A stretch of 64,000 nucleotides of DNA from Gammaproteobacteria bacterium (GTDB taxonomy: Bacteria > Pseudomonadota > Gammaproteobacteria > Burkholderiales > Gallionellaceae): positions 157,832-221,831 of the forward strand of contig JAHIZO010000008.1 in assembly GCA_018814405.1 (NCBI GenBank), read 5' to 3'. Of the stretch, positions 9,045-63,273 are shown one piece after another (position 1 is the stretch's first letter; each line of letters starts with the position of its first letter). Both the position numbers and the translations under genes were made by a program. The notes beneath the pieces are model-generated. The model saw only the letters and a program-made list of their open reading frames with translations, was not told where the DNA came from and ran no database searches.

Positions 9045-9101
9045 TTGTTCTCCCTGATATAAAAATGGCCATGCAGTCGCATAGCCAATTCATTCATCTT
9101 C

Positions 9102-9416
9102 TTATGCCGAGATCGTTACCTCGTCGCTGCGGCTATCGCCGGTGTTGTCAACCCAGCTGATCATGACCTTCTCCCCCGCGCTGCCGCCCTTGAAACTGAA
9201 CATCAGATAGGGGTTCTTGGAGATCGATTGCCCGAATTGCGCATCCAGCACGACGCGCCCCTGATATTCGGCTTTGACTTCGGTGATGAACCAAGCCGGG
9301 ATCAGGGAGCCGTCCGCGTCTTTACGCAGGCCGGTTTCCATATCGTGCTGCATCAGGATCTTAACTTCGGTCATGCCATCCTTGACGGAGGCACGTATCT
9401 TCATTGGTTTGCCCAT
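9102..9416 (-). CDS. soxZ: SoxZ, sulfur carrier partner
   Basis: A 104-aa immunoglobulin-like protein that pairs with SoxY to form the SoxYZ sulfur carrier. It has the usual SoxZ length and N-terminus (MKIRASVKDGMTEVKILMQHDMETG) and a C-terminal segment VMISWVDNTGDSRSDEVTISA. There is no signal peptide, as expected for a partner exported with SoxY. GGAAGA precedes the ATG. Confidence 0.95.
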   Translation of the reverse strand: MGKPMKIRASVKDGMTEVKILMQHDMETGLRKDADGSLIPAWFITEVKAEYQGRVVLDAQFGQSISKNPYLMFSFKGGSAGEKVMISWVDNTGDSRSDEVTISA

Positions 9417-25598: not shown

Positions 25599-26762
<1,164 letters not shown>

Positions 26763-26778
26763 TTCGCATCATCCATCC

Positions 26779-26860
26779 CGCCGAGGGGCGCTGCAGCAGT
26801 CACCGCATGGTGAACCTGTCAGGCTCGGCGAGGAAGGCTCAACATGTAGCAACGGCGCCC
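26779..26860 (+). ncRNA. SAH riboswitch
   Basis: The leader of ahcY contains the conserved SAH-riboswitch core: CGAGGGGCGCTGCAGC, GTCAGGCTCGG and AACGGCGCCC, in that order and spacing. This class binds S-adenosylhomocysteine and raises expression of the hydrolase. A hairpin CATTCATT/AATGAATG (26860-26884) abutting the GGAG ribosome site is a likely expression platform. Confidence 0.93.
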
Positions 26861-26893
26861 ATTCATTAACTCACTAAATGAATGGAGTGCTTT

Positions 26894-28315
<1,422 letters not shown>

Positions 28316-37275: not shown

Positions 37276-37779
37276 ATGAAACGCCTGAACAGCTTTCCGC
37301 CCGTCGCCGATCGCAATGCACGCACCCTCATCCTCGGCAGCATGCCCGGCCAGCGTTCACTCGACGCGCAACAGTACTACGCCCATCCCCACAACGCCTT
37401 CTGGAAACTCATGGGCGAGCTGGTCGGTGCGCATCCACACCTGCCCTACGAACAAAGACTGGAAGTGCTGAAGCAGGCCGGTATTGCGCTGTGGGACGTG
37501 CTGCAATCCTGCACACGAGAAGGCAGCCTGGACAGCGACATCCAGCATGAACAAGCCAACGACTTCGCCGTATTCTTTGCCGACCATCCGCACATCACGC
37601 ACGTGTATTTCAACGGCGCAAAGGCAGAACAGAGTTTCAGGAAGTTCGTATTGAAGAAACAGGAATTGCCGGAACTGACATTACACCGCCTGCCATCAAC
37701 CAGCCCGGCACATGCAGGGAAGCGTTATGAGGAAAAACTGCTTGAGTGGCGCAACATCACGAGACATAACTCAGTTTGA
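37276..37779 (+). CDS. DNA-deoxyinosine glycosylase (UDG superfamily)
   Basis: A 167-aa glycosylase with the motif LILGSMPGQRSLDAQQYYAHPHNAFW typical of family 6 (hypoxanthine-specific) enzymes, and the C-terminal LPSTSPAHAG. It removes deaminated adenine (hypoxanthine) from DNA. It starts 5 bases after the methyltransferase stop. Confidence 0.9.
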   Translation: MKRLNSFPPVADRNARTLILGSMPGQRSLDAQQYYAHPHNAFWKLMGELVGAHPHLPYEQRLEVLKQAGIALWDVLQSCTREGSLDSDIQHEQANDFAVFFADHPHITHVYFNGAKAEQSFRKFVLKKQELPELTLHRLPSTSPAHAGKRYEEKLLEWRNITRHNSV

Positions 37780-37789
37780 TCAGCTCGTA

Positions 37790-38305
37790 CTAAACGCCAC
37801 CTCCTCGATGGATCGTGGCGTAATAGATTTTCTCCAACTCCAATTTGTGCTTAGTTTCTTCACTTGCCAGATATTGGAATAATTCGCGGATTGGGCCCGC
37901 TGGCGCTGTCTCTGCCAGTTCGCCATAGTGTTGCATGGCGGCATGTTCGCGCCCCATAGCGTATTGCAGAACAGCCTGATCGTCCGGCTGTTCTCCCAGA
38001 TTCGGCAGATGCAAACAATCTGAGAACTTGCTGTCACTGGCGGTGCGCTCGATTTCAATTTTCACTTGGTCGGCGATATCTGTGCGCTGAGCCAGGCTGG
38101 CAAACAAATCAAAATGGGCCTGTTCTTCATCTGCCAGTTCTTCGACCAGATAGCGGATCTGTTTGCTGACTTTGGGGATCAAATCCCTATAGAAATTTCG
38201 CGCGCTTTCTTCAAATCCTGTGGCGACTTCCAATATTTCCTGCACCGTTGTTTTGCTGCGTAAGCGCTCCATGCCATGCGCCATACCTTCATCGAATTGC
38301 GTCAT
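37790..38305 (-). CDS. Ferritin-like diiron protein coupled to the Mbx-like operon
   Basis: A 171-aa four-helix protein with two ExxH-type half-sites: Glu33 with E61-QA-H64 (ADEEQAHFDLF), and REHAAMQHY with SEETKHKLELE near the C-terminus. This is the rubrerythrin/ferritin-like diiron arrangement without a rubredoxin domain. Its ATG overlaps the stop of the NuoI-GltD fusion gene (ATGA), so it is translated with the complex. Possible roles are oxygen or peroxide protection of the Fe-S clusters or iron supply; neither is proven. Confidence 0.8.
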   Translation of the reverse strand: MTQFDEGMAHGMERLRSKTTVQEILEVATGFEESARNFYRDLIPKVSKQIRYLVEELADEEQAHFDLFASLAQRTDIADQVKIEIERTASDSKFSDCLHLPNLGEQPDDQAVLQYAMGREHAAMQHYGELAETAPAGPIRELFQYLASEETKHKLELEKIYYATIHRGGGV

Positions 38306-40101
38306 TTTGGCTGCTCCGTTTCTGCAATCATTTCATGAATGCTCTGCGCAACACGATGGCCGTCTGCCACAGCGCTCACCACGTCTGGGCCGCGCACCAT
38401 GTCGCCCGAGGCCCACAACCAAGGTTCACTCGTGCGGCCTCCTGCATCCACCTGCAAGCGACCGCGATTCCAAGTCAACTTCTCAGTAAGTGTGTCACCC
38501 AATATGCTGACATCGGTCATCTGACCGATCGCTTCAATCACCATCGAGCCTGCATGCATTTGCTCATCAGTCTCATCGTAACTTGGTGCGAAGCGTCCTT
38601 GTTCGTCGAAGATGGCTTTAACATGCCAAGTCTTAAGTCCCGTGACCTGGCCATTTTCAATAACCACCTGCCGCGGGCCGCGCGAATCGAGAATGACAAC
38701 GCCCTCCTCTCCCGCTTCTTTGACCTCATCGGGGTCGGCGAGGAAGTGCGCCAGATCTTCCAGTGCAGTCAACGTGACCTGCACCCGGCCAAATTCTTTC
38801 TTCTGCAAACGGGCAATCGTACGCGCGATATCCATCGCCACGTTGCCGCCACCGATCACGACCGCCTGACGCGGCGGGCCGAAATCTTCGAAGGCGGTCG
38901 CTTGGCGCAACAGGTCAACCGCCTTGCGGACGTTCTCATGCTCACTACCCGGGATGCGTGTCGCGCGTCCCAACTGCAGGCCCAGCGCCAAGAGCACGGC
39001 ATCGTAGCTGTTGTGTAATTCATCGAGCAAGATGTCTTTGCCGATGCGTACATTGCACCGAATATCCACACCCACCGAACGAATCACATCGATATCCTGA
39101 TCGATGCGTGCATAGGGCAGACGGTATTCCGGGATACCCCAGCGCGTCATGCCGCCTGGTTTGTCAAACGCTTCGTAAACAGTGACACTGTGACCAAGTT
39201 TAGCCAGATCAAAGGCGGCGGTGAGTCCGGCCGGGCCCGCGCCGATGATGGCGACTTTCTTTCCAGTGGCAGGTCTAGGACCGCCTACGATGTCGCGGCA
39301 TTGCTCGAAAGTCACTTGATCCATGATGTGACGCTTGAGCCAACGTATCGCGATAGGGTCGCCGTCGTGACGGGCTGCGCAGGTGGTTTCGCATTTGTGC
39401 GTGCAAACGCTTCCGCAGATGCCTGAGAACGGGTTGGTTTCGTACAGGAGTTTTAAGCCGCGCTCATAGTCTCCATCACGCACTGCTGCGATGTAATCGG
39501 GCACCGACATGTGCGCGGGGCAAGTGGCGACGCACAATCCACAGGAGACGCAACGATCCGCTTCAAGGCGCGCTTGCTCAATGGTGTAGCCGTTGACGAT
39601 CTCAGCAAACGATTCGATGCGTGTCTCCGGCTCCATCTCTCCCATGGGCAAACGAACCTTTGCCATCAGCTGATGCTCTTCGGGACGATGGTAGCCAAGC
39701 TCGGCGTTGTCCCAATGCTTCTTGTCTACGCCCGGCGTGAAGCGGAAGGCATCAGGATCACTTTCTACCCAAGTATATGCATTCGACATGGTGAGCGATT
39801 TGGTCATGCAGACGTCCACACATAACGCACACCAACAACAACGTCCGTAATCGATGCGCGGACGCAGACCTGAATCACCTTGTTTGGTCTCGATGCCGTC
39901 GACGGGGAGCATGTCGATGGCTCCGTTCTGGCAGATGGTCTCGCAGGTGCCGCAACCGATGCACTTGTCCATATCGTTCTGATGAAAGCCACGATAACGC
40001 GGGGCACCGGGCCTGTCATTCAACGGGTCGATGATCGTCACCGGATCGCGGAACAGGTTCTTCCACGCGGCAAAGGGGGAGAGAAGGTCTCGTACGCTCA
40101 T
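38302..40101 (-). CDS. Fusion of NuoI/MbxN-like ferredoxin and GltD-type NAD(P)H oxidoreductase
   Basis: A 599-aa protein. Residues 40-125 carry two CxxCxxCxxxC clusters (Cys47-57 and Cys88-98, the latter in GRCCWCALCVDVCMTKSLTMS) as in NuoI/MbhN. Residues 180-245 carry two more cysteine quartets (Cys184-194, Cys229-241) of the GltD N-terminal domain. Then come an FAD motif (IIGAGPAGLTAA, near 286-296) and an NAD(P) motif (VVIGGGNVAMDIA, near 414-426). Four [4Fe-4S] clusters, FAD and a nucleotide site are thus predicted in one chain. It should connect NAD(P)H to the NuoBCD-like arm. It follows the NuoD-like gene by 2 bases. Confidence 0.9.
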   Translation of the reverse strand: MSVRDLLSPFAAWKNLFRDPVTIIDPLNDRPGAPRYRGFHQNDMDKCIGCGTCETICQNGAIDMLPVDGIETKQGDSGLRPRIDYGRCCWCALCVDVCMTKSLTMSNAYTWVESDPDAFRFTPGVDKKHWDNAELGYHRPEEHQLMAKVRLPMGEMEPETRIESFAEIVNGYTIEQARLEADRCVSCGLCVATCPAHMSVPDYIAAVRDGDYERGLKLLYETNPFSGICGSVCTHKCETTCAARHDGDPIAIRWLKRHIMDQVTFEQCRDIVGGPRPATGKKVAIIGAGPAGLTAAFDLAKLGHSVTVYEAFDKPGGMTRWGIPEYRLPYARIDQDIDVIRSVGVDIRCNVRIGKDILLDELHNSYDAVLLALGLQLGRATRIPGSEHENVRKAVDLLRQATAFEDFGPPRQAVVIGGGNVAMDIARTIARLQKKEFGRVQVTLTALEDLAHFLADPDEVKEAGEEGVVILDSRGPRQVVIENGQVTGLKTWHVKAIFDEQGRFAPSYDETDEQMHAGSMVIEAIGQMTDVSILGDTLTEKLTWNRGRLQVDAGGRTSEPWLWASGDMVRGPDVVSAVADGHRVAQSIHEMIAETEQPK

Positions 40102-40103
40102 CG

Positions 40104-41294
40104 TTATCTCTCGATCTCAGGAGGATAGGTATGCAAGGACACCATGAGCGATGCGACGTCTGAAATATTGAGATTGACGATCATGCGCTCCAACAGTGAC
40201 ACCGCATGGGTATAGGAAGGGCCGCGAACATTGACGCGGCGCGGATAGCCACTGCCATCTGTCACCAAGTAATAGCCGTATTCGCCACGCGAACATTCGC
40301 CGCGAATATAGGTTTCACCGCGCGGTATCTTCCAGTGCAACACGTTAGGTACTGTCGCCATCAGCGGCCCGGTGCGCGGCATCTTGGCCAGTATCTGGCG
40401 CACCAGATCGACAGAGACGAGCACGTCGCGACGGCGCACATCTGCGCGGGTGAATATGTCGGAGTCCTGCCCCAGCACAGGTTCGAAATCGAGCTGTGAA
40501 TAGATCAGGTATGGCTGATCTTTGCGCACATCTTTGGCCACACCGGCAGCGCGCGCGTTCGGCCCGGTGATACCGTATGAATCGACCAGTGCGGGATCGA
40601 TGTAGCCCACGCCGACAGTGCGCTTTTTAAATACCGCGTTGCAGAACATCACGTCATACACATCTTTAAGGGTGCTTTCGACCTCACGCAGGGTTTCTTC
40701 CATGCGTTTGTCGAAACCTTCCGGCAAGCCATCGCGCACACCGCCGGGCATGATGAACATGTGATAGATACGCGCGCCGGTGAGTTCTTCAAAGCGGTCT
40801 AGCATCAGGTCGCGAGCATAGGTGGTCCATTGCCCGATCACGCCCAAACCCAGTGCACCGGCCTGCCCACCCAGATACATCATGTAGCTGTTGATCCGCC
40901 CCATTTCCAAAATGAGCGCGCGTATCCAATCCGCGCGCTCGGGGGATTTGATGCCCGCGAGTTCTTCGACTGCGGCTGCATAGCAATACTCGTTGAAGTC
41001 CGGCTCGGGCACACAGATCCGGCACACGATCGGGAAGCACTGGATGAATGTGCGGCGCTCCATGAGCTTCTCAAAACCACGGTGGAGATAACCGACGTGC
41101 GTCTTGCCTTCCACGACTTCGTCACCGCAAACGGTCAACTCAACAGACATATTGCCCGTGATGCCGGGATGATTCGGCCCCTGCCACAGCTTGAGATATT
41201 TTCCCGAGGCGATATCGATATCCAGCGTGCCATCCGCTTTTTTGGCCGGATATTGGCTACGGTCTGGCGTGAAGAAAGGTGCGTTCTGTGTCAT
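40104..41294 (-). CDS. NuoD/MbxL-like subunit (hydrogenase large-subunit family without NiFe site)
   Basis: A 396-aa protein related to complex I NuoD and group 4 hydrogenase large subunits (HVGYLHRGFEKLMERRTF, MGRINSYMMYLGG, MPGGVRDGLPEG, GPNARAAGVAKDVRKDQPY, RGECSRGEYGYYLVTDGSGYPRRVNVRGPSYTH). The NiFe ligands are absent. The N-terminal motif is CRICVPEPDF, where one cysteine of RxCxxC is lost, and the C-terminus reads SLHTYPPEIER instead of DPCxxC. It is therefore an electron-transfer subunit, not a hydrogenase. Confidence 0.9.
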   Translation of the reverse strand: MTQNAPFFTPDRSQYPAKKADGTLDIDIASGKYLKLWQGPNHPGITGNMSVELTVCGDEVVEGKTHVGYLHRGFEKLMERRTFIQCFPIVCRICVPEPDFNEYCYAAAVEELAGIKSPERADWIRALILEMGRINSYMMYLGGQAGALGLGVIGQWTTYARDLMLDRFEELTGARIYHMFIMPGGVRDGLPEGFDKRMEETLREVESTLKDVYDVMFCNAVFKKRTVGVGYIDPALVDSYGITGPNARAAGVAKDVRKDQPYLIYSQLDFEPVLGQDSDIFTRADVRRRDVLVSVDLVRQILAKMPRTGPLMATVPNVLHWKIPRGETYIRGECSRGEYGYYLVTDGSGYPRRVNVRGPSYTHAVSLLERMIVNLNISDVASLMVSLHTYPPEIER

Positions 41295-41295
41295 G

Positions 41296-41826
41296 TCAGT
41301 TCCCGCCTGAATTCAGTTTCTGCTTCATGTGCGCAGCGGGATCGTGCGTCACCCTACCGGGGCGCTCGCTATAGTTCTCTTGCGCATACTTCAAGGTGTC
41401 AAAATCGCGGCGATAGGGCGGGATGTCATTCCATCCTTCCAGAATGAACTCTTCATGCAGGCGCGGACTACCCGGGAAATCAATGCCGAACATTTCGCGC
41501 AATTCGCGCTGATAGGTCGCGGCTGTCGGCCACACATCATGGATGCTTTGCATAGTCGCGCCATCACGCGCCAGCATGACCCGCACGCCCAGATCTTTTC
41601 CGGCGGTGCGATTGGAAAGCAAATAGGTGAGTTGGAACTGCCCCGCTTCCAACCAGTCCACCGCGGTCAACAAAACCAGATGCGTAAAGCCTTCACGGTC
41701 GCGCAAATGAACGAGCACAGCGCGCAGATGCTCCTGCGGGACAGTGACGAAACCCAGATTAGAGCGCTGCTCGGTTAAGTCACCGACCGGGAACAGGCTT
41801 TTAAGTTTTGTGTGAAGTTCGCGCAT
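41296..41826 (-). CDS. NuoC/MbxK-like subunit (30-kDa family)
   Basis: A 176-aa protein with the NuoC signature ATYQRELREMFGIDFPGSPRL and the preceding HVWPTAATYQ segment. It is a structural subunit of the hydrophilic arm holding the NuoD-like subunit. Lies 9 bases after the NuoB-like gene and 1 base before the NuoD-like gene. Confidence 0.92.
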   Translation of the reverse strand: MRELHTKLKSLFPVGDLTEQRSNLGFVTVPQEHLRAVLVHLRDREGFTHLVLLTAVDWLEAGQFQLTYLLSNRTAGKDLGVRVMLARDGATMQSIHDVWPTAATYQRELREMFGIDFPGSPRLHEEFILEGWNDIPPYRRDFDTLKYAQENYSERPGRVTHDPAAHMKQKLNSGGN

Positions 41827-41835
41827 TATTAAGCT

Positions 41836-42477
41836 TTACCAGTTGTAGTCGGGCATATCCCAATCGTGGATCACCCGCTTTTGGTTTGCCTTGTACCACT
41901 CGAAATTTTCGGCATACAAGTTGGCACCTTCGGCTTTGCCGGCACGAATGAGTTTTTTCATATCCTGAAATCCGGCCAGCAATGCTTCGGGTCTGGGCAT
42001 GCAGCCCGCGATGTATAGATCGACCGGCAGGTAATCGTCCAGACGCTTAATGGTGTTGTACGAATCCCAATACATACCGCCATTGATCGTGCAGGAGCCG
42101 AGGCCGATCACGTACTTGGGATTTTGCATCTGTTCATACGAGCGAATAGCGCGCTTGAGCGTTTTGGTGGACAGGTAACCCGAGATCACAAACAGATTCG
42201 CCTGACGTGGTGTGGGCCGCCACTGCACGCCGAATCGGTAAGCGTCAAAACGCGGCGTCATCAACGGGCGCATCTCTATCGCGCCGCAACCTGTGCCAAA
42301 ACCAAGGATCCAGATCGACTCCGAGCGCGCCCAGTTGAACAGGTCTTCCACGACTTTTATGTACGCGGCCGGCATCACCGTGGGCGCTGCTTCGCAGTAG
42401 TAATCCTTCAGCGGCTCGACTTCGAATTCGACCCCGTCCGGCCCTTTGACAACCCGTATTTTAAGTTCATCTTTCAT
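41836..42477 (-). CDS. NuoB/MbxJ-like Fe-S subunit with altered N2 ligands
   Basis: A 213-aa protein aligned with NuoB (NWARSESIWILGFGTGCGAIEM, RFGVQWRPTPRQANLFVISGYLSTKTL, IGLGSCTINGGMYW, PVDLYIAGCMPRPEA). The third and fourth N2 ligands are present, in LGSC and AGC. Complex I has a tandem Cys-Cys (SCCYVEM in E. coli) where this protein has GCGAIEM, so one of the four ligands is missing. Group 4 hydrogenases have CxxC there, which also does not fit. The cluster must be ligated differently or be of another type. Confidence 0.92.
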   Translation of the reverse strand: MKDELKIRVVKGPDGVEFEVEPLKDYYCEAAPTVMPAAYIKVVEDLFNWARSESIWILGFGTGCGAIEMRPLMTPRFDAYRFGVQWRPTPRQANLFVISGYLSTKTLKRAIRSYEQMQNPKYVIGLGSCTINGGMYWDSYNTIKRLDDYLPVDLYIAGCMPRPEALLAGFQDMKKLIRAGKAEGANLYAENFEWYKANQKRVIHDWDMPDYNW

Positions 42478-42483
42478 GTCATC

Positions 42484-43389
42484 TCACACCAATATGATCG
42501 ATAAAATACCCAGCGGAACGGCCCATATCAGGAACCAGCGAATTGACTGCTCTACACGGAAGCGCGGAAACACAACGCCCACAAAAGCCGACCACAGATA
42601 GATCAAGAACACTTTGAAGAAGAAGGTCGGCCAATCGCTCGCACCGCCAAAGAACAGATTCATGTAGATCACGATCTTGGCGATCGGGAAGATGGCCCGA
42701 TTAGTCTGCATTAGCGCAAGATAGGCTGAGTGGTATTCGGTCGGAGGACCGATCGGTATCTCTTGCGGCGCTATGACCACGTCGAAAGGTGGGCGCATCA
42801 TAGAACCTAGGAATCCAAGCATCGCAGCCGCCACGGCAAGTGGATTGGTGAACAAGGTCCATTGCAGAAATCCACCTTGTTGCGCGGCGACGATCTCAGT
42901 CACCGATAATGTCTGATATTGCAATGCCACGGCAAACACCGCGAGCGCAAAAGGAAGTTCGGCGGTTGAGACTTGCGCCAGCCCGCGTGACACGCCGATG
43001 GCGGCATGCGGATGGCCGCTCTCACCCGCCCCCAGCGCCATGCCCAAAGTGCCGAAGAAGATAAAATACAGCGCCAAGATCAAGTCGCCCGCGAATGACA
43101 GGTTCGAGAACATGTAAGAACCATAGATAGTCGGCACGAACAATAACAAGCCAACGCCGCCCGACAAGCGAAACACGGGGCCAAGATAGAACATCGCACC
43201 ATGCGTGATCGACGAACGCAGGCCATAGTTCTTGATCATATCTACGTAGTTCTGCCAGATCGGAATGCCGTAACGGCGTCCTGCCCGCGCCCCCATCTTT
43301 TGAATCAGCGCGTTCAGAAAAAAACCGTAGTTGACGACGATGAACAGCGTCAGAAGTGAGTAGGGGATCTTCATCCAGTCAAAAGGCAT
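42484..43389 (-). CDS. NuoH/MbxM-like membrane subunit
   Basis: A 301-aa protein with about eight membrane helices. It keeps the NuoH/HycD/MbhM family hallmarks: QKMGARAGRRYGIPIWQNYVDMIKNYG after the first helix, FFGTLGMALGAGESGHPHAAIGVSRGLAQVSTAELPFALAVFAVA, and MMRPPFDVVIAPQEIPIGPPTEYHS. It forms the junction between the hydrophilic arm and the antiporter module and, in complex I, part of the quinone cavity. Confidence 0.93.
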   Translation of the reverse strand: MPFDWMKIPYSLLTLFIVVNYGFFLNALIQKMGARAGRRYGIPIWQNYVDMIKNYGLRSSITHGAMFYLGPVFRLSGGVGLLLFVPTIYGSYMFSNLSFAGDLILALYFIFFGTLGMALGAGESGHPHAAIGVSRGLAQVSTAELPFALAVFAVALQYQTLSVTEIVAAQQGGFLQWTLFTNPLAVAAAMLGFLGSMMRPPFDVVIAPQEIPIGPPTEYHSAYLALMQTNRAIFPIAKIVIYMNLFFGGASDWPTFFFKVFLIYLWSAFVGVVFPRFRVEQSIRWFLIWAVPLGILSIILV

Positions 43390-43390
43390 T

Positions 43391-46300
43391 CTAGGCTCCC
43401 ATCCGCATTAAATAGGCAATCACCACAAAGGAGAGCAAGTGGAATGCATAACTTTGTCCGTTACCGTTGTAGAGACGCCGAGATATATCGGCTGCGGTGT
43501 GCAGGGTGTTCGTCACACCGTCCCAAAAACGCGTCGCGAAAGGCTGCACGAGGAACCCCAGCGCCTTGCGGTAAGGCGCAAAGAAATTCCATGCGAAGTG
43601 GGTCGTTTCCGGACGATAGGGTCGCTCGGCGGCATACACGATATTGAACTGTTTGACTTTTTGCGCCTTCCTGTTAACGAACAGCAACCACGCGAACAGC
43701 GTGCCGAAAATGACGGCGATGATGATCATGATGGCGACGGGATTCCAGTAGCCGTAGGCGCTGCTGATCTCGGTGCCTGTCCACTGCAAACCACCGCCAG
43801 GGAATATCTGATTCAGATAGGTATCAACGCGTCGCAATGCAACGCCAGGTGCCACGGCAAAGGCCAGCAACAGGGCGACATAGATCATTTGCGGCAGGAT
43901 GAACCAGAAAGGCGCTTCTTTTATCTTGCGATACTCATCTTTCAATTGGCCCAAGAAAATGGTGTGAATGAGTCTGAAGAGATAGAGGAAGGCGATCGGC
44001 CCGGCCAAGAAGATGATGACCATCGGCAGGCGATATTCGGATGAGATGATGGCATTGTAGAAGATCCAGCGCCCACCAAAACCTGATAACGGCGGCACGC
44101 CCGATACGGCGATGATGCCGATCAGCGTCGCAATAAAGGACAGCGGCATCAGCGTGATCAAACCGCCCATGCGATACATGTCACGCGTGCCGGTGCGCTT
44201 TGCTACGCCGCCTGCCGAGAGGAAGAGCATCGACTTATAGATGTAGTGATTGATGACGAACATCAGCGCCATCAACCAACCCAGATGATTCATCAAGGCC
44301 AGCCCAAACAGCGCGTAGCCCATTTGCCCTATGGATGAATAAGCCAGCAAACGCTTGGCATCCTCCTGGAAGATCGCCATCAAGTTACCCAGCAATGCGG
44401 ACAGCGCGCCTATCCACAACATCACATAGGTAAGTTCAACGCCATATAGCTGCTGCTTACCCATCGTCATCAGCAATACGATCAAGCCGAACAGCCCGGC
44501 CTTAAGCAAGATGCCAGACACCATGGGCGAGACATCTGTCTCGGCCTCGCTGTGCGCGCCCGGCAGCCAGATATGCAAACCGATGGCGGCTGTTTTGGTC
44601 ATAAAGCCGATTGCCAGCAAAAGGAATACCCACGGTGCCAAGGGCTGGGTCAACTGCGCCAGTGCGTCGATGTTGAATAGGGGCGCGCCCTGCGCTGCCA
44701 GCGCGAATCCGGCCAGGATCAGGAATGCGCCGCCTAGCGAGAAAATGATGTAAGAAAGCGCATGCGGCTCTGAGTGTTTGCCGCGCAATATCAAGAAATA
44801 CGAACCGATCGTTAACAGCTCCCACGCGGCAAAAAAGCCAAAGGTGTCTGTGGCGCGGATCAGCAAGATAAGTCCGGCGAACATCAGCATCGTGGCCGGG
44901 TAGAAGCCGATGCGCCTTCCTTTTGAATCATAGCTAGCCAACAAAATAACAGCGCCACCGATGAGGAAGATGATGGCGAAGATCATCCGCAGCGGATCGT
45001 AATCGGAGAATGTCAGATAAAAGAACAGACTCAAGCCAACGATCGCTATCGAGTTCTTGACCCATGCCGGCAACCAGTCGAGCAACAGAAAGGTGAGCGC
45101 GAATACGACGGGAATGGCGAGTAATAAATTGTCGTGGCCGAAATACTGGTTAGACAACTCACCCCACACAAAACCCAATGCCCAGCCACTGGCGAGCGCC
45201 ACAAAAATGGCACTGATTTGAAACGGCGAACAGCGCACAGATTGGGCGGGCACTTCGCGTTTGATGATGTATCCGAACCAACGGAACAGATATCCGGCCT
45301 CTATCAGCAAGCCGAGCAGGATCAGACCGATCAGTGCGATGCGCCCCTCTCCCGCCAAGATGCGTACCATTTCCCACTTTGCATAAAAACCGGGGAAAGG
45401 CGGCAAGCCACTGAGCATGGCGATAAAAGTAACGAAGGCAAAAACGAGTATCGGGCGGCTACGCAATGCAGCCCAATCGGGCAGTTCGCGCCCGGCGACC
45501 AAGCCCGATATCCAGTTGAGTCCCGCCTTGGCAATGGCGTGTGACAGTAACAGTCCCCCGGCGATGTACAGCACGTTATCGCCCAGTATGTCGCGCTGTC
45601 CCAGCACTGCCAGGATAAGTCCGGTTTGCGCTATAGAGGAATAGCCGAGCAAGCGCCGGTCATTCGTCTGCGGCAATGCAAACAAGTTAGCCGCAAGAAA
45701 AGTGATGACACCGATGCCCGTTGCCATAGGCAGCCATTCCGCGCCGCCAATGAGCAATAGTTTGTCGACGGCATAAATAACGGCACTGCTGGTCGCGGCA
45801 GAAAATATGGCTGCAAAGCCCGGGTGTGCAGATTCATAAATGTCGAGCCCCCAACCATTCGCGGGGAAAGGTTTCAGTTCGGCAACAACGGCGATGAAGA
45901 GGAAAAAGAATGCAATCGCCCCACCGGCTTTGAGTCCCAGCGAAGCCGTGGCCATGCCATCGATATTCAATGTCCCGGTAGCGTGGTAGGCGAAGATGAT
46001 GCCGATCAGGAAAAACACCGACAGCATTTGCGAAACGATCAAGTACTTAAAACCCGCTGCCAATGCACGTGCGTCTTCGGAGAGTAGCATGAGCCCGGCG
46101 GTGGAAATAATGGCCAGTTCAAAGAATACGAACAGATTAAACAGGTCGCGCGTGAGGATGATGCCTGTCAGCGCCATCACTGCAACCAGCAGTACGGCCA
46201 TCGCGCGTTGACCCAGCGCGCACAACACGTCCTTCATATAGAGTGCGGAGAGCAGGCCCGTCAAACTCGCGAGCAATGTCAGTACCGCTTCGGGCAAGCC

Positions 46301-46528
46301 CATGCGGAAATTGATCGAGAACGGCGGCGAAGTGCCGCCCGTTAAGAAGTCGACCGGCGCGGCACGCTCCATCACAAACGCCCACACCCACCCCGCCGAT
46401 ATCCATGTCATCACTGACAGTGCAAACAGCGTGATCACATAGGCAGTGCCGCGCTTTTCTGACTTAAGCAGCCCCAGCAGAAAAGCAGCGCCCAGTGCGG
46501 CAACGATGATGTAGATCGCGTTCACCAT
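43391..46528 (-). CDS. Tandem MrpD/NuoL-type antiporter fusion (MbxH-MbxH' like)
   Basis: A 1045-aa membrane protein containing two complete antiporter units. Unit 1 (about 1-430) has Glu137 (FVFFELAI), Lys219 (AELKPFPANGWGL), RRLLGYSSIAQTG (291-303) and Lys334 (SHAIAKAGL). Unit 2 (about 505-900) has Glu570 (FFAAWELL), Lys645 (FMTKTAAIGLHIWLPGAHSEAETDVSP), KRLLAYSSIGQMG (725-737) and Lys765 (NHYIYKSMLF). The spacing between equivalent residues is 426-433. A C-terminal extension with further helices and an amphipathic tail follows. Unit 1 has lost the WLPxAH motif (GWGLDIYESAHP), whereas unit 2 keeps it. Overlaps the MrpC gene by 7 bases. Confidence 0.95.
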   Translation of the reverse strand: MVNAIYIIVAALGAAFLLGLLKSEKRGTAYVITLFALSVMTWISAGWVWAFVMERAAPVDFLTGGTSPPFSINFRMGLPEAVLTLLASLTGLLSALYMKDVLCALGQRAMAVLLVAVMALTGIILTRDLFNLFVFFELAIISTAGLMLLSEDARALAAGFKYLIVSQMLSVFFLIGIIFAYHATGTLNIDGMATASLGLKAGGAIAFFFLFIAVVAELKPFPANGWGLDIYESAHPGFAAIFSAATSSAVIYAVDKLLLIGGAEWLPMATGIGVITFLAANLFALPQTNDRRLLGYSSIAQTGLILAVLGQRDILGDNVLYIAGGLLLSHAIAKAGLNWISGLVAGRELPDWAALRSRPILVFAFVTFIAMLSGLPPFPGFYAKWEMVRILAGEGRIALIGLILLGLLIEAGYLFRWFGYIIKREVPAQSVRCSPFQISAIFVALASGWALGFVWGELSNQYFGHDNLLLAIPVVFALTFLLLDWLPAWVKNSIAIVGLSLFFYLTFSDYDPLRMIFAIIFLIGGAVILLASYDSKGRRIGFYPATMLMFAGLILLIRATDTFGFFAAWELLTIGSYFLILRGKHSEPHALSYIIFSLGGAFLILAGFALAAQGAPLFNIDALAQLTQPLAPWVFLLLAIGFMTKTAAIGLHIWLPGAHSEAETDVSPMVSGILLKAGLFGLIVLLMTMGKQQLYGVELTYVMLWIGALSALLGNLMAIFQEDAKRLLAYSSIGQMGYALFGLALMNHLGWLMALMFVINHYIYKSMLFLSAGGVAKRTGTRDMYRMGGLITLMPLSFIATLIGIIAVSGVPPLSGFGGRWIFYNAIISSEYRLPMVIIFLAGPIAFLYLFRLIHTIFLGQLKDEYRKIKEAPFWFILPQMIYVALLLAFAVAPGVALRRVDTYLNQIFPGGGLQWTGTEISSAYGYWNPVAIMIIIAVIFGTLFAWLLFVNRKAQKVKQFNIVYAAERPYRPETTHFAWNFFAPYRKALGFLVQPFATRFWDGVTNTLHTAADISRRLYNGNGQSYAFHLLSFVVIAYLMRMGA

Positions 46529-46878
46529 TTAAGCTCCGCGAACTTCGAAATATCGAGCGTGCCTTTGCGTTCATAAAGCTTATAGGCAAAAACAAGCATC
46601 AGCGCGGCCACCCCCACGCCGATCACAATGGCGGTCAGCACGAGTACTTGCGGGACCGGATCGATGACACGAGTGAGCGCATCTGCCGCTGAGACGGTCG
46701 CATCCAAAATCGGCGCGGTGCGGCCATGCATATAGCCGATAGCAATGATCACAACATTGATGCCGCTATTGGCGATCGTGAAAGCCACGATCATGCGCAG
46801 CAGATTACGATTTGTAAGCGCGCCATAGAAACCGATGAGGATCAGCAGGAAACCCGTGGCCAAAGCAATATATGTCAC
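46522..46878 (-). CDS. MrpC/NuoK-like subunit
   Basis: A 118-aa protein with three membrane helices (YIALATGFLLILIGFYGAL; MIVAFTIANSGINVVIIAIGYM; QVLVLTAIVIGVGVAALMLVFAYKLYERKGTLD). These are the MnhC/NuoK/MbhG features, including DPVPQVLVLTAIVIG. It overlaps the gene upstream by 4 and the downstream fusion by 7 bases. Confidence 0.95.
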   Translation of the reverse strand: MTYIALATGFLLILIGFYGALTNRNLLRMIVAFTIANSGINVVIIAIGYMHGRTAPILDATVSAADALTRVIDPVPQVLVLTAIVIGVGVAALMLVFAYKLYERKGTLDISKFAELKW

Positions 46879-47576
46879 TGCAGGTCCTCCATTTCAGAGA
46901 GGTTGGCCAGCATGGATGAGAACTCGGCACCGACCTTGAGGCCGATGAGTGAATAGATCAACGGGATGGCACCCGCAGAAATGAGGTCGCCAAAATCGCC
47001 CAGCGGCAAGATGCGATTGTCGAGAAAGCTGCCGGCCAACACGATGCCGAGCACCCCCAGTGAGACATAAACAAAGCCCGACAACGATTCAACAAGAGAG
47101 ATCAGCGCATGACTAAAGTGCTTGAGTGGATCAGACAGCAATAGCAACAGCATGCCTGACGCGATGATCGCACCGCCCTGAAAACCGCCGCCCGGCGTTA
47201 GGTGTCCATTCACAAAAACATAGACGCCCAAAAGCATGATGATCGGCGCAAGATAGCTTTTACCCGTAGTTAGCAATTCACCAACCGGCACGAGCTTGCG
47301 AAGCGTTGTATTCTGTTTGTTCCCTAGCGACAAAACCAAGCCGATGATGCTTGAAGCGAGGAACAACACAGTGACCTCACCCAATGTATCCAAGCCACGA
47401 TAAGTCACCAGAATAGCGGTGACGATATTGGCCGACCCGGTTTCGCTGGCGGTGTTTTCTGCGTAGTAGCGGGCGGTGAGATTCAAACTCGCATCCGGCT
47501 CATAAGACATCATCAACGCAACGAAGATAGCCCCGATGCCTACGAGCAGCGATAAGGCAAGGAAACGCTTAATCAT
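46875..47576 (-). CDS. MrpB-like subunit with MbhE-type N-terminal domain
   Basis: A 233-aa membrane protein. The first 85 residues correspond to MbhE/the end of MrpA (MIKRFLALSLLVGIG, then NIVTAILVTYRGLDTLGEVTVLFLASSIIGLVL). The rest is the MnhB domain (LLTTGKSYLAPIIMLLGVYVFVNGHLTPGGGFQGGAIIASGMLLLLL). The ATG at 47576 has GAGG seven bases upstream and overlaps the previous stop by 8 bases; longer starts at 47591 and 47606 are possible. MrpB and MbhE are separate genes in Pyrococcus. Confidence 0.9.
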   Translation of the reverse strand: MIKRFLALSLLVGIGAIFVALMMSYEPDASLNLTARYYAENTASETGSANIVTAILVTYRGLDTLGEVTVLFLASSIIGLVLSLGNKQNTTLRKLVPVGELLTTGKSYLAPIIMLLGVYVFVNGHLTPGGGFQGGAIIASGMLLLLLSDPLKHFSHALISLVESLSGFVYVSLGVLGIVLAGSFLDNRILPLGDFGDLISAGAIPLIYSLIGLKVGAEFSSMLANLSEMEDLQ

Positions 47577-47853
47577 GATTCGCCTCTTCATATTCACGCT
47601 CTCCATTCCGCATCCGTGCCAGAACGAAAAAGAACAGGAAAGTGGTCAGGCCGCCGCCAATCGCCGCTTCAGTCATCGCCACATCGGGTGCGGCCAAGAT
47701 CAGGAATAGCACCGAGGCCAGCAGACTGACCAGACCGGCAGCCAGAATGGCGATGGACATGCTTTTGTCGCCCTTGACCTGAATCGAAACGATCGCAGCA
47801 ACAAGGATCGCGATGCACAGCACAACAGTCATAGCGGTCAGTAATGTGCTCAT
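47569..47853 (-). CDS. MbhD-like/MrpA C-terminal (DUF4040) subunit
   Basis: A 94-aa protein with three helices and the DUF4040 motif LILAAPDVAMTEAAIGGGLTTFLFFFVLARM, equivalent to MbhD or the detached end of MrpA, which helps form the ion path. Overlaps MrpG by 4 bases. Confidence 0.92.
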   Translation of the reverse strand: MSTLLTAMTVVLCIAILVAAIVSIQVKGDKSMSIAILAAGLVSLLASVLFLILAAPDVAMTEAAIGGGLTTFLFFFVLARMRNGEREYEEANHD

Positions 47854-48191
47854 GAGCGTTCTCCGGTATCTTCAGCCAGATGATCGACCATCGTGAGCTG
47901 TGACTTTTCGAGGCCCATGCGGTGCGCTGCGCGAGCCAACACCTGCGAGGAGATCGGGTTGGTGAGCAGAACGAACAAACCGATCAGCAGTAATTTCAAA
48001 CTCCAGTCGGGCTGAAGACACGCAGCGCCCGCCAACGTCAGCAGCGTGCCCAGCGTGGTCGTTTTGGTTCCGGCTTGAATGCGGTTAAAAAGATCTGGCA
48101 TACGCACAAGTCCCAAACCACCCAGTAACAAGAAAGCGGCGCCGGCAACGAACAACAAACCGCCCACAATAGAGAGTGCAGTGTCCGTCAT
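47850..48191 (-). CDS. mrpG: MrpG-like antiporter subunit
   Basis: A 113-aa protein with three helices and the MnhG/PhaG pattern GGLLFVAGAAFLLLGGLGLVRMPDLFNRIQAGTKTTTLGTLLTLAGA. Overlaps MrpF by 4 bases (ATGA). Confidence 0.95.
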   Translation of the reverse strand: MTDTALSIVGGLLFVAGAAFLLLGGLGLVRMPDLFNRIQAGTKTTTLGTLLTLAGAACLQPDWSLKLLLIGLFVLLTNPISSQVLARAAHRMGLEKSQLTMVDHLAEDTGERS

Positions 48192-48448
48192 AGTCCACGC
48201 TCCAAATAACGCGCCACCACGATCACGCCCAGGAAAGACAGCAACGCATAAACCAAGGCAACATCAAGATAGATACCGCGTCCCTCGGCCAAGGCGATCA
48301 ATACGATGCCGGTGATGGCAATAATAGTCAGCACATCGTAGGCCACCACACGATCAGCAGCCGACGGGCCTTTGAAGAATCTATAAAGTGCCAGCAAGAA
48401 AGCAAGGCTCGTGAGTGTCGCAGCGACATAAACCAGAAGATCAGCCAT
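48188..48448 (-). CDS. mrpF: MrpF-like antiporter subunit
   Basis: An 86-aa protein with three helices and the MnhF motif FFKGPSAADRVVAYDVLTIIAITGIVLIALAEGRGIYLDVALVYALLSFLGVIVVARYLERG. Overlaps MrpE by 8 bases. Confidence 0.95.
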   Translation of the reverse strand: MADLLVYVAATLTSLAFLLALYRFFKGPSAADRVVAYDVLTIIAITGIVLIALAEGRGIYLDVALVYALLSFLGVIVVARYLERGL

Positions 48449-48947
48449 ACATCACCTCAAGATAGTGCTCGAAACCGGAGACGATGTTGGCTGTTGCTAT
48501 ATCAGTATCTGTTGAACTCACCGTGACGCAGTGGATGTAAAGCCACTCACCCGTCATTTCAACTGTCAGCGTGCCCGGGGTAAGCGTGATCGAGTTGGCC
48601 AACAACATGCGCCCCATACGGCTTTTTAGTTTGGTGCGGACTTTGACGATACCTGGTGACAGCGGCAACCCAGGCGTGAGCACAATGCGCGCCAAACCAA
48701 AGTTAGACTTAACCAGTTCCTTGAAAAAGAAAACGACATACAACAAAGAATAGCCGATGGCCTTGGGTGTTGGCTGTAAGTCAGAAAAAGCGGAGAGGCC
48801 ACCATTGAATAGCGCAGCGATGACAAAGGAAGCGATCAGGCCTACAACCACCACATCGATCGCTAGAGAACCATTGAGCCAAAACCAAAAAATGGCAAGC
48901 GTCAAAAACAGTTGAAAGAAACTTGAAACTCGTTGCACTTGATGCAC
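48441..48947 (-). CDS. mrpE: MrpE-like antiporter subunit
   Basis: A 168-aa protein, first gene of the complex operon. Its N-terminal hydrophobic helices (LFLTLAIFWFWLNGSLAIDVVVVGLIASFVIAALF) and the soluble end with SRMGRMLLANSITLTPGTLTVEMTGEWLYIHCV match MnhE. The GTG at 48947 has AGG six bases upstream; a second GTG lies 9 bases downstream. Confidence 0.92.
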   Translation of the reverse strand: MHQVQRVSSFFQLFLTLAIFWFWLNGSLAIDVVVVGLIASFVIAALFNGGLSAFSDLQPTPKAIGYSLLYVVFFFKELVKSNFGLARIVLTPGLPLSPGIVKVRTKLKSRMGRMLLANSITLTPGTLTVEMTGEWLYIHCVTVSSTDTDIATANIVSGFEHYLEVMYG

Positions 48948-59888: not shown

Positions 59889-60299
59889 TCATTCCTGCCA
59901 CTCCTCGTCGTCTGCGAAACTCGAACCGGACTGCTTCTTCAGATGTTTCGCCAGCCACACCGGCGGTTCTTCCACCATGTTCTTCTGCAGGCCGTTCAAT
60001 AATTCTTCGATGGCCGAACCTTCATCCACGCGCATCGGCTGGATGCCGCCCGCCAACAATTGCTGGATGGCCGAAGCGCCCGCCGCGTTGCAATACACCG
60101 CCGCGCAATCGCCCAGCAGTTCCACCTTGGCGGCCAGCTTGCCTTCGTGTCCGTCCATCGCCGTCTCGATGAACTCGGCCACCTCGATCAACTTCGCGTC
60201 GTCCTCGCTCACCTCATAGATGGCGAAAGATTCCGCCGCACCGAAATGCTGATTCACCGCCTTGCGGTCGCTGGTGGCGAATGCGATCTTCACTGTCAT
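59889..60299 (-). CDS. nifX: Nitrogen fixation protein NifX
   Basis: Binds NifB-co and the VK cluster and passes FeMo-co precursors to NifEN. A 136-aa protein with the NifX/NafY fold (MTVKIAFATSDRKAVNQHFGAAESFAIYEV, LLGDCAAVYCNAAGASAIQQLLAGGIQPM). The start at 60299 is set by AGGAGG. Directly downstream of nifN. Confidence 0.95.
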   Translation of the reverse strand: MTVKIAFATSDRKAVNQHFGAAESFAIYEVSEDDAKLIEVAEFIETAMDGHEGKLAAKVELLGDCAAVYCNAAGASAIQQLLAGGIQPMRVDEGSAIEELLNGLQKNMVEEPPVWLAKHLKKQSGSSFADDEEWQE

Positions 60300-60309
60300 G
60301 TCAGCCTCC

Positions 60310-61701
60310 TTAGTGTGTTTGACCAGACGCAGGTGTCGCACGACTCTCTCCTGTCCGCTGTGCATAGATGGAGACAAAAGGTTCAGGCTCGATATGTCCG
60401 TGCTCCACCAGTAAGTTCGCCAGATCGAACAGCGCCTGGCGCGTGCCGCGATAACCCACCCACAGGCGCTGATAACCGCCCAGCAAGTCGTATTGCGGAA
60501 AGCCTGCACGCAGCAGCGGCACACCGAGACGGCGTGATGTCTCCACCGCATGCGAATTGCTGATCACCAGTTGTGCGCCTTTGCGCTTGGCCATGTTCTC
60601 AAGGTCTTCCAGATCGCCGATGGCCACCTGCTCCGCCAGCACACTTTCCAGAATGTGTGCGCGTGCCGGTGCAACGGCCGCCACCACTTCACAGCCCATC
60701 TCCGTCACCAGACGCGAGAAGCCGTAAAGCAGATCGGCATCCGCCGCGATGGCGACGCGTGCGAAGCCCAGCATGAAGTGCACATCCACCATCGCGTCCT
60801 GCAACTGCGCGCGCTGGCGTTCGATCTTCTCCGGCACAGGCTTGCCGCTGATGTCGGACAGCGCCAAAACAAAACTATCCACCGCCTCCAAACCCATCAG
60901 GCAATCGAAGCGATAGTCCGGAACGCCGGTCTGCGCTTTGAGCACGTCCGCCGCATCGAACAAAGAATTACCCAGCACCAAGGTCGCGATGGATTCGCCC
61001 ATGGTGGAGATATCAGAGACCGGTGTGCCCCCCACCGTGAGCGGGGAACTTTCCATCTCGGTCAGATGGCCGTCGAGTGAATCGCCAAGGTCAGGCAACA
61101 CCAGCGGACGCAGACCGAATGCCTCGATCAATTCCTTGATGTGTTCGATGTCGCCCGGGGTGAGGAAAGAACCGGCCAGCACGTTGACCTGCTTCTTGCG
61201 CTTGCCCACGTTGTCCGTCTTCTCCGGCAACATCACTTCCAATGTCGCTTTCACCGCCAGCGCATAACCGCTTTCCAAACAACCGGTGAAGTCCGGCGTG
61301 TTCACCGGCACTACGGGGATGTGCGCGTACTCGGGATGCTTGGCGTAGAAAGTCTTCACCAAACGTTTGATGTCTGTGCCCTGTGTTTCGGAAAGGCCGG
61401 TGGTCGGCAGTCCGATCAAAGCAGGCTTGCTCTTCTCGCACACCGCACGCAAACCTTCGATCACGTTCTCGTCCGCATTCATCACGGTGGACACCTGATC
61501 CATCGCGGTGGTCTGCAAAGGGATCGGCTCGCGGAAGTGGCGCACGAAGAACACCTTGCCGAACGCGGTGCAACCCTGCGAACCGTGCAGCATCGGGATG
61601 GCTTTGTTGATGCCCAGGAAAGCGAGCGACGCACCGACCGGCTGGCTGGCCTTGAGCGGATTCACCGCGAGTGCTTTGTTGCGTTTCAGTATCTCGGCCA
61701 T
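60310..61701 (-). CDS. nifN: FeMo-cofactor scaffold subunit NifN
   Basis: The beta subunit of the NifEN scaffold on which FeMo-co is completed. A 463-aa protein with [69 protein letters not shown], typical of NifN. The ATG at 61701 follows AAGGAG; an ATG five codons upstream is less likely. Confidence 0.97.
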
Positions 61702-61715
61702 GTCACGCTCCTTCA

Positions 61716-61845
61716 ACCGTCATTCCCGCGCAGGCGGGAATCCAGCAAGAACCAACAGCCCGCGCAGCGGACAACCCAAAGCTTTCGCCCCGCATGCGCG
61801 GGAAATATTCAACTACTGGATTCCCGCTTTCGCGGGAATGACGGT
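61716..61845. repeat. MITE-like repeat with ~27-bp terminal inverted repeats, copy 2
   Basis: A 130-bp element in the nifE-nifN intergenic gap. Its ends match copy 1 at 57908-58027 (GTCATTCCCGCG ... CGCGGGAATGAC); the left arm differs by two bases (CAGG for AAAG). An internal CCCCGCATGCGCGGG palindrome is present. It lies within the operon without interrupting a gene. Confidence 0.8.
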
Positions 61846-61869
61846 TTAAATGTCGAGCCACGTTCATCA

Positions 61870-63273
61870 TCACGCCCCCAACTCCACACCCGGCACTGCC
61901 TTCGCCCACGGTGCAGGTTTGCGTACGCCCGGCCATACCGGGCTCTGGATGGTCAGCGCGAGCTGGCGGGCAAGTTCGATCATGCCGCTGTAGCCCTCGT
62001 AACCGAATTCGCGTTCCTGATTGATATCGAGGAATGGGATGCGCGCTTTCAACGCGGTGTACATGTTGCGACCACCCGCGATGAGGATGTCGGCTTGATA
62101 TTCCTTCACCACGCCGAGCAAAGCCTTAGGGCTACCGTCGGTGATCATCTTGGTCTTGTCACCCATGATCTCGCGGATGCGCGCTTTGTCTTCCTCGGTG
62201 GATTTGTTGGTGCCGGTGGCGACCACGTCCATGCCCAAATCTTGCAGTGCAGAAACGATGGACCACGACTTCACACCGCCGGTATAGAGCAACACACGCT
62301 TGCCGCGCAGCTTCTCGCGCCACGGGTCGAGTGCCGCGTTGATCTTGGCTTCCTCGCGCGCGATCATCGCTTCGGTGCGCTCGGTCAGCGAAGGGTCGTT
62401 CAGCAGCTTGGCGAAATCGCGGAAGGCATTCGAGGTATCGGTCACGCCGTAGAAGCTGCCTTCGAAGAACGGCACTTTGTGATCGGTCTGCAGTTTGCGT
62501 GCGATGTTGAGCAAAGCTTTCGCGCACACCACCATGCTGGCTTCGGCGCGGTGCATGGTCTGCACTTCATGGAAGCGCGCATCGCCGGACAAAGTACACA
62601 GGATGCGCAGACCCAGTTCGTCGAACAACGGTGCCACGTTCCAGAACTCACCCGCGATGTTGTATTCGCCGATCAGGTTCACGTCGTGCACGGTGATGCC
62701 GGGACGTTGCAATTCGTCAGGCACCGGCAAAGGTTCGCCCGTACCCACCACATATTTGAACATCGCCTCACCCGCGATGCGGTTGCCCAGATTCTTCGTG
62801 CCGTAGAAACCGGCACAGTCCACCGGCACCACCGGCACGCCGGTCTTCTCGGCTGCGGCTTTGCACACCGCGCTGATGTCGTCACCGGTCAGCGCAGGCA
62901 CGCAAGTGTTGTAGACGAAGACGGCTTTCGGGGCGTAACTATCGACAGCCTGCTTGATGGAATGGAACAAACGCTTCTCACCGCGCCCCATGATCACATC
63001 TTGTTCAGTCAGATCGGTCGTCATACCGATGCGATACAAAGTCGGCCCGGAAGAACGCGTACCGCGGTTGTCCCAAGAACTCCCCGCACAAGCGATAGGC
63101 CCGTGCACGATATGTGCAACGTCAGCGATAGGCAGCAAAGCGATCTGCGCCCCGTCGAACGAGCAGCCGCCCGCAGTCGCCCCAGGCTTGGGTCGCGCAC
63201 AACCGGATTTCTCCTTCTTGTTATGCGTACAGGCCGGTTCGTTCAGCAGTTCGGCGATGTCCTTGGCTTGCAT
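61870..63273 (-). CDS. nifE: FeMo-cofactor scaffold subunit NifE
   Basis: The alpha subunit of the NifEN scaffold. A 467-aa protein with [59 protein letters not shown], and [21 protein letters not shown]. It is the first gene of nifENX and has a sigma-54 promoter directly upstream. Confidence 0.97.

Follow-up and report, generated by a model that had tools for sequence, protein, structure and literature searches.

What a complex with both Mrp antiporter and complex I-like subunits might do in a bacterium that has a separate set of complex I-type genes is the question raised by a locus of the Gallionellaceae. The locus lies in a stretch of 64,000 nucleotides (the window; assembly GCA_018814405.1, contig JAHIZO010000008.1, positions 157,832 to 221,831 of the forward strand) and comprises 13 genes (Table 1). 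The original prediction, made from the letters of this stretch, had described an Mbx-like complex and had suggested for it either the role of an alternative complex I or, in reverse, the supply of low-potential reductant for CO2 or N2 fixation. As set out below, the 13 genes form a conserved cassette related to the membrane-bound sulfane sulfur reductase (MBS, formerly MBX) of Pyrococcus furiosus, and we give about an even chance to its encoding a Na+/H+-coupled NADH:sulfane-sulfur oxidoreductase, most likely one that reduces stored sulfur in anoxia. Through it, carriers would likely be able to pass electrons between NADH and a store of sulfur, coupled to ion movement across the membrane. By what inexpensive route lithoautotrophic sulfur oxidisers obtain NADH is, to our knowledge, an open question, for which the cassette would offer one testable enzyme in cultured strains.

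A conserved cassette of thirteen genes

An open reading frame (ORF) check of the window finds the 13 ORFs on the minus strand, running from 48947 to 37790, where the original prediction had placed them, and the Pfam annotation bears out the identities it had assigned. Its account of mostly overlapping genes (by 1-8 bases) holds approximately: overlaps occur at seven of the 12 junctions (of 4 to 8 bases, save one of 38 with the chosen start), and the other five are gaps of 1 to 9 bases. Neither NuoE, NuoF nor NuoG appears in the Pfam annotation of the 13 genes, and there is no separate ferredoxin gene among them. Since the window genome (2.38 Mb, 98.7% complete) carries a separate complex I-type NuoB/C/D set on another contig, the Mrp/Nuo-like cassette would constitute an extra complex.

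The cassette was followed in two samples. Scanning named genomes with the NuoI-GltD protein gave 21 loci, and 20 after L025, with only a distant GltD-like match, was dropped. The class sample consisted of 369 evenly drawn genomes, with a NuoI-GltD match at E <= 1e-150 defining an operon carrier; 16 genomes, that of the window included, are carriers, and they are spread over 15 families. The synteny search that had been suggested as a check shows the gene order to be widespread: all 13 genes occur in the same order at 14 of the 20 named loci, the remaining six being broken off by contig ends, and at 11 of the 15 other class-sample loci (in L044 the last gene meets the contig end). L057 contains all 13 genes with mrpG and mbhD swapped (3313-4140), and its NuoH match is split into two pieces in different frames (8505-9291); a search of L051 for the 13 cassette genes gave no mbhD match; and L056, reduced to its final two genes, and L058, with eight, are both cut by contig ends. 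The diiron gene follows that of NuoI-GltD at all 17 named loci with sequence beyond it and at 14 of the 15 class-sample loci, with no diiron match within the 1.4 kb left beyond NuoI-GltD in L058.

Around the cassette, by contrast with its constant interior, no Pfam family was found in more than three of the 88 flanking ORFs scanned at 22 loci (88 of 108 listed ORFs were aligned, the omitted 20 being mostly short, and some ORFs may not be genes), and a conserved wider neighbourhood was rejected. The constant gene order and the lack of shared flanking families define the 13-gene cassette itself as the unit. The gene order is not a product of chance, and the operon is real.

Three types of cassette are distinguished below by labels coined here: A (the window, the named loci and L044), B (L045-L056, with L056 assigned from two genes) and C (L057 and L058). 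The closest named relatives belong mostly to the Gallionellaceae, and cultured carriers among the named loci are Celeribacter and Aliiruegeria. Judging by the names among the best 120 of 2998 relatives of the fusion protein, which for type B include Thiosocius, Thiodiazotropha and tubeworm symbionts, the cassette is probably also present in tubeworm and clam symbionts. At L009, on a Tepidiphilus-labelled contig, approximately 850 bases (1873-2721) separate the NuoD-like gene from that of NuoI-GltD.

Kinship with the MBS/MBX complexes

The best Protein Data Bank (PDB) matches of the four core proteins tested all fall within the structure of P. furiosus MBS (6u8y). The NuoB-like protein matches chain J with 224 bits (next best 133), the NuoD-like protein chain L with 305 bits (next best 216) and the NuoH-like protein chain M with 133 bits (next best 49), while the fused MrpD pair matches chain X through its C half (204 bits) and chain H with its best stretch in the N half (141 bits). 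Residues of the MBS pumps are retained as well. By alignment, Glu217 of the pair corresponds to MbsH Glu219, Lys645 to MbsH-prime Lys217 and Arg820 to MbsH-prime Lys399, and Lys384 is paired with MbsH Lys393 by motif only. All 12 type A and C rows conserve Glu217, Lys384 and Lys645, and at position 820 all 10 type A rows have arginine and the two type C rows lysine.

The phylogeny that had been proposed as a check leads to the same grouping. In a NuoD tree of 28 rows, eight of them references (with one archaeal MBS standing for MBS and no Ehr sequence), types A, B and C join MBS in a group of 21 rows with support of 100/99.7, and the five complex I rows (the window genome's own included), membrane-bound hydrogenase (MBH) and HycE fall outside it. 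The NuoD-like protein thus shows neither of the groupings, within NDH-1 or with active NiFe hydrogenases, that had been named as refuting the original prediction. Inside the group, B is placed nearest to MBS with support of 66/42, and the approximately unbiased (AU) test accepts two alternatives (p 0.28 and 0.49). Judged from sequence, the kinship is decisive: the cassette encodes subunits of an MBS/MBX-type complex. The features first described, namely two MrpD-type subunits, the lack of a complete NiFe site and the GltD flavoprotein, are upheld by the domains, the alignment and this tree. Nevertheless, since NuoI is fused to GltD, unlike the ferredoxin input through NuoI alone in P. furiosus, the cassette represents by its gene content a variant of archaeal MBS and not a copy.

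Active-site residues

P. furiosus MBS is reported to lack the quinone-binding residues of complex I (Nqo4 His38 and Tyr87) and the key glutamate of MBH, and three cysteine ligands of its proximal cluster leave one iron that reduces polysulfide (PMC7684303; this and the other papers cited by PMC number are drawn on from excerpts). In the window's NuoD-like subunit, alignment places Thr46 at the position of His38 and Val95 at that of Tyr87, and equivalents of this histidine and tyrosine are likewise absent from all 34 aligned relatives. Only one of the four NiFe cysteines remains (Cys94, equivalent to MbsL Cys85), with Tyr390 at the position of MbsL Cys385. In the NuoB-like subunit, Cys64, Cys129 and Cys159 are present and Gly61 replaces MbsJ Cys25; of the paired cysteines that complex I has at its proximal cluster, one is missing. 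The three coordinating cysteines are conserved in 33 of 33 rows, window included, and we infer that the cassette NuoB holds a three-cysteine proximal cluster. The remnant cysteines differ between types, in that type B keeps Cys25, Cys85 and Cys385, type A lacks Cys25 and Cys385, and both type C rows additionally lack Cys85.

Because the quinone residues are missing, the NiFe site is incomplete and the three cluster cysteines of MBS are kept, the predicted substrate is sulfane sulfur, and not quinone or protons. The same residues, together with the position of the cassette in the NuoD tree, led to the rejection of both an ordinary NDH-1 and an active group 4 [NiFe] hydrogenase of the MBH or formate hydrogenlyase (FHL) kind.

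The NuoI-GltD fusion and its cofactor

In NfnB, a YRR motif holds the phosphate of NADP, and kinetics on three model DsrL enzymes associate this motif with NADP(H) and its lack with NAD(H) (PMC7596348). The GltD part of the window protein carries ALE in place of YRR (TALED, residues 445-449), as do all 32 type A and B rows with coverage there (AME in L044; L022 and L024 lack coverage). Conversely, YRR is present in both type C rows and in the four reference chains compared. Since YRR has been lost, the DsrL rule predicts NADH as the cofactor of types A and B, and NADPH is predicted for type C. The 'NAD(P)H' of the original prediction therefore stands as regards a pyridine nucleotide, and is narrowed to NADH for the window's type.

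The fusion protein matches the NCBI family PRK13984 ('putative oxidoreductase') over its full length, albeit below the cut-off (860 of 946 bits). The cut-off of this family (NF010590) is passed by one of 14 control genomes; if that genome is Thermotoga maritima, which is a candidate only, the NuoI-GltD fusion may be older than types A to C.

Exchange of the electron-input module

The three types are clearly separated in the core of the complex. Median identities of NuoH, NuoB and NuoD lie at 60-67% between A and C and at 32-52% between A and B (for locus subsets, the latter of five by six loci), and a core tree of 29 rows holds A, B and C apart with support of 98, 100 and 96, the branch to B measuring about 3.5 changes per site. 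The two MrpD-type pumps form one ORF in types A and C and separate ORFs in L045, the type B locus that was inspected.

Within the NuoI-GltD protein, however, the relationship changes along the chain. Up to about residue 240 type A is nearer to C (65%, versus 53% to B, at 181-240), and beyond about residue 270 it is nearer to B (63-65%, versus 20-23% to C, at 481-570). In the tree of the NAD domain (residues 331-595), A and B rows are intermixed, and an AU test on this domain rejects a tree in which type B is held together (p 7.5e-7, with a loss of 104 in log-likelihood; computed on 29 rows, leaving out L055 for its long branch and L057 and L058 as type C, with the grouping chosen after a quick tree had been viewed). 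The NuoI-part tree fails to unite type A (the odd join has support of 84, with long branches flagged). As the core keeps the types apart while the NAD-domain tree mixes A and B, these trees indicate that the NAD domain has been swapped among pump cores that diverged deeply, the crossover lying inside the NuoI-GltD gene. Either C or A may have been the recipient. The diiron gene has apparently been exchanged likewise, its product having identities of 61% between A and B, 60% within A and 34% between A and C, and a tree in which A and B are again intermixed. Eight residues of the diiron protein (Glu32, Glu60, Glu61, His64, Glu120, Glu149, Glu150 and His153), invariant in 21 aligned sequences, would be its diiron ligands. 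A relative of complex I whose electron-input domain has been exchanged by intragenic recombination would make the choice of cofactor in this superfamily experimentally accessible.

Association with sulfur-oxidation genes

In the class sample, soxB is present in 16 of 16 operon genomes versus 134 of 353 others (p=3.4e-7), and dsrA in 16 of 16 versus 102 of 353 (p=5.7e-9), in one case (G264) as a contig-edge fragment only. The corresponding counts for nifH are 5 of 16 and 27 of 353 (p=0.008). When the comparison is confined to 80 genomes with soxB (the 16 with the operon and 64 of the 134 without), dsrA remains commoner in carriers (16/16 versus 44/64, p 0.008), but RuBisCO does not (12/16 versus 54/64, p=0.46), and autotrophy was rejected as the distinguishing trait. 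For the named loci, 19 of the 20 genomes were covered (L023 was left out): soxB is found in 16, dsrA in 14 and at least one of them in 18. The dsrA matches of L007, L008 and L022 lie in two adjacent pieces each; the pieces share one open frame in L007 and L008, and in L022 one of them contains a TGA. In the window itself, SoxB is encoded at 5781-7577 on the minus strand (875.7 bits), about 30 kb from the operon.

The cassette is thus nearly always found, in these samples, in genomes with sulfur-oxidation genes. This link, which the earlier description had not raised, is far stronger than that to nif genes. The nif genes which that description had placed near the operon are indeed there (nifE, nifN and a nifX-like gene, 59889-63273 on the minus strand, about 11 kb away), and nifH is found on another contig of that genome (C7).

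Proposed function and alternative explanations

In the mechanism that we consider, the cassette proteins would assemble into one complex in which the FAD of the GltD part would accept electrons from NADH and hand them on, by way of the clusters of Fer4_20 and NuoI, to the NuoB-type proximal cluster. There, ligation by three cysteines would leave an open iron for polysulfide or persulfide, in the manner reported for P. furiosus MBS, and the energy released would serve to translocate ions by way of the Mrp module and the fused pair of MrpD-type pumps. The most likely role would be the use of stored or bound zero-valent sulfur as an electron sink in anoxia by bacteria that otherwise oxidise sulfur, with the diiron protein probably removing peroxide or O2 near the open cluster. 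The potential of NAD is about -0.32 V and that of sulfur/sulfide about -0.27 V under standard conditions, rising clearly once sulfide is millimolar or below. On these values, electron transfer from NADH to sulfane sulfur would yield roughly one or two ions' worth of energy, so that pumping in the forward direction and driving in reverse are both possible.

The forward, reductive direction is favoured because the homologue that has been characterised works as a reductase, carriers show no enrichment in RuBisCO, and Celeribacter and Aliiruegeria, which we take to be heterotrophs, are among them. Several observations nonetheless weigh against the proposed function. Most carriers are, by their genes, oxidisers of sulfur, an observation also in line with the reverse direction; soxC, which sulfur storage would lead one to find missing, is not significantly depleted in carriers among the soxB genomes (1/16 versus 13/64, p=0.28); and the p-values of association take genomes as independent. 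Among the named-locus genomes, three of 19 have no soxB match and five no dsrA match: four Celeribacter genomes have soxB and no dsrA match, two others have dsrA and no soxB match, and that of L010, whose completeness is not established, has neither. The carriers without a dsrA match imply that handling of stored sulfur by reverse dissimilatory sulfite reductase (rDsr) is not required. Furthermore, several reference rows of the NuoD tree were flagged by the program for their long branches, and two remnant cysteines present in MBS (Cys25 and Cys385) have disappeared from type A, although MbsJ Cys25 and MbsL Cys85 and Cys385 are dispensable in MBS (PMC7684303). Finally, DsrL-1A of Allochromatium vinosum, an NADH-linked relative of GltD from the sulfur-oxidation pathway, favours NAD+ reduction (PMC7596348).

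The latter finding, with the presence of soxB and dsrA in every operon genome of the class sample and of RuBisCO in 12 of 16, also speaks for a reverse mode, in which an ion gradient would drive electrons from sulfide or persulfide to NAD+ and so provide a sulfur oxidiser with NADH independently of the quinone pool. For the Riftia symbiont, moreover, the network neighbours of a putative Mrp-Mbx complex are shared with the reductive tricarboxylic acid (rTCA) cycle and not with the Calvin-Benson-Bassham (CBB) cycle, its direction being given there as unknown (PMC11636981). Yet RuBisCO is no commoner in carriers than in other soxB genomes, the presumed heterotrophs carry the cassette too, and the characterised homologue runs reductively; this mode is possible, but we lean against it. 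A more specific form, a gradient-driven sulfide/persulfide:NAD+ oxidoreductase of MBS descent in proteobacterial sulfur oxidisers, in which a swapped NuoI-GltD domain and diiron gene re-tool the pump between NADH and NADPH, strikes us as somewhat less probable again; were it true, lithoautotrophs could form NADH directly from sulfide, with neither the quinone pool nor complex I in reverse involved. That the cassette serves as an alternative complex I, an NADH:quinone oxidoreductase with GltD input and an Mrp pump, was one main idea of the original prediction, and is in keeping with the overall subunit plan, the homologous NuoH/B/C/D/I and antiporter-type subunits and the NADH-quinone oxidoreductase names carried by the best NCBIfam matches of the NuoH-, NuoB-, NuoC- and NuoD-like proteins. 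This idea is not sustained by the residues, given that the quinone histidine and tyrosine and one paired proximal-cluster cysteine are lost; NuoE/F/G are missing, NuoD lies in a separate clade and the genome has its complex I-type NuoB/C/D already, all of which makes it unlikely.

A further reading is an NADH peroxidase acting on peroxide or O2, formed by the GltD part and the diiron protein and merely sharing an operon with the pump. The NAD domain and the diiron gene do share their pattern of exchange between pump cores, and NCBIfam contains a GltD-ferritin fusion family (NF009413), but the NAD domain is covalently fused to a NuoI part whose identity follows the pump core, and such a peroxidase appears to us quite improbable. 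The other main idea first put forward, gradient-driven reduction of ferredoxin as a low-potential donor to nitrogenase or CO2 fixation, draws on the nif genes near the operon and on the enrichment of nifH in operon genomes. However, 11 of the 16 operon genomes have no nifH match, the neighbourhood of the cassette is not conserved and the cassette has no separate ferredoxin gene; N2 fixation was rejected as the main role, and reductant supply is the reading to which we give least credence.

Relation to known systems

With P. furiosus MBS, the cassette shares two MrpD-type pumps, the Mrp module, an incomplete NiFe site, the absence of the quinone histidine and tyrosine, a probable three-cysteine proximal cluster and a NuoD clade. 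It differs in that MBS is fed by ferredoxin and its NuoI-type chain N (208 residues) has no GltD part, whereas in the cassette NuoI is fused to the flavoprotein, the pumps are fused to one another, Cys25 and Cys385 are lost and a diiron gene is added. Bacterial Mbx-type complexes are already in print (PMC11636981, PMC9431562), and hydrogenase-like complexes somewhat similar to Mbx occur in bacteria outside sulfidic habitats (PMC4053972). The Riftia complex is likewise of the Mbx type, found in a sulfur-oxidising vent symbiont and suggested to act in sulfur reduction, but the excerpts of PMC11636981 name no GltD, diiron subunit, cofactor motif or module exchange, and the likeness is one of description only. 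Also compared by description only, the T. maritima MBX (PMC9431562) is a bacterial 13-subunit homologue of MBS with transcripts that rise with sulfur, and it differs in being described as ferredoxin-dependent and in belonging to an anaerobic thermophile. DsrL (PMC7596348) and NfnB/StnC possess the same GltD-type FAD/NAD(P) domain, and DsrL-1, from sulfur oxidisers, similarly lacks YRR and uses NAD(H); these proteins are, however, partners of rDsrAB or of bifurcating complexes, with no fusion to NuoI or to a pump. No description of the NuoI-GltD-diiron cassette was found among the open-licence PMC papers searched. As far as those papers show, the fixed cassette with its diiron protein, its near-restriction in these samples to genomes with sulfur-oxidation genes, the prediction of NADH as cofactor and the exchange of the input module are new.

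Features of the window

Table 1. Genes of the cassette in the window, in order from the first gene.
Feature	Position	Strand	Evidence
MrpE-like subunit, 168 aa	48441..48947	-	PF01899, E 2.9e-36; cassette gene no. 1
MrpF-like subunit, 86 aa	48188..48448	-	PF04066, E 6.3e-18
MrpG-like subunit, 113 aa	47850..48191	-	PF03334 (PhaG), E 7.5e-25
MbhD-like subunit, 94 aa	47569..47853	-	PF13244, E 2.9e-13
MbhE-MrpB fusion, 243 aa	46875..47606	-	PF20501 + PF04039 (MbhE + MnhB)
MrpC-like subunit, 118 aa	46522..46878	-	PF00420 (Oxidored_q2), E 2.4e-22
Fused MrpD-type pump pair, 1045 aa	43391..46528	-	Two Proton_antipo_M stretches; N half MbsH-like, C half MbsH-prime-like
NuoH/MbsM-like membrane anchor, 301 aa	42484..43389	-	NADHdh; 6u8y_M
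NuoB/MbsJ-like subunit, putative proximal cluster C64/C129/C159	41836..42477	-	Oxidored_q6; 6u8y_J
NuoC/MbsK-like subunit, 176 aa	41296..41826	-	PF00329 (Complex1_30kDa), E 6.1e-27
NuoD/MbsL-like subunit	40104..41294	-	Complex1_49kDa; 6u8y_L; alignment and tree
NuoI-GltD fusion, 599 aa	38302..40101	-	Fer4 + Fer4_20 + Pyr_redox_2; TALED motif
Rubrerythrin-like diiron protein, 171 aa	37790..38305	-	PF02915 (Rubrerythrin)

A gene of the uracil-DNA-glycosylase superfamily (37276-37779, plus strand) converges on the end of the operon, 10 bases away. Elsewhere in the window, an S-adenosylhomocysteine (SAH) riboswitch (26777-26867, plus strand, 57 bits) stands immediately before the gene for S-adenosylhomocysteine hydrolase (26882-28315) and is preceded by metK (25599-26762).

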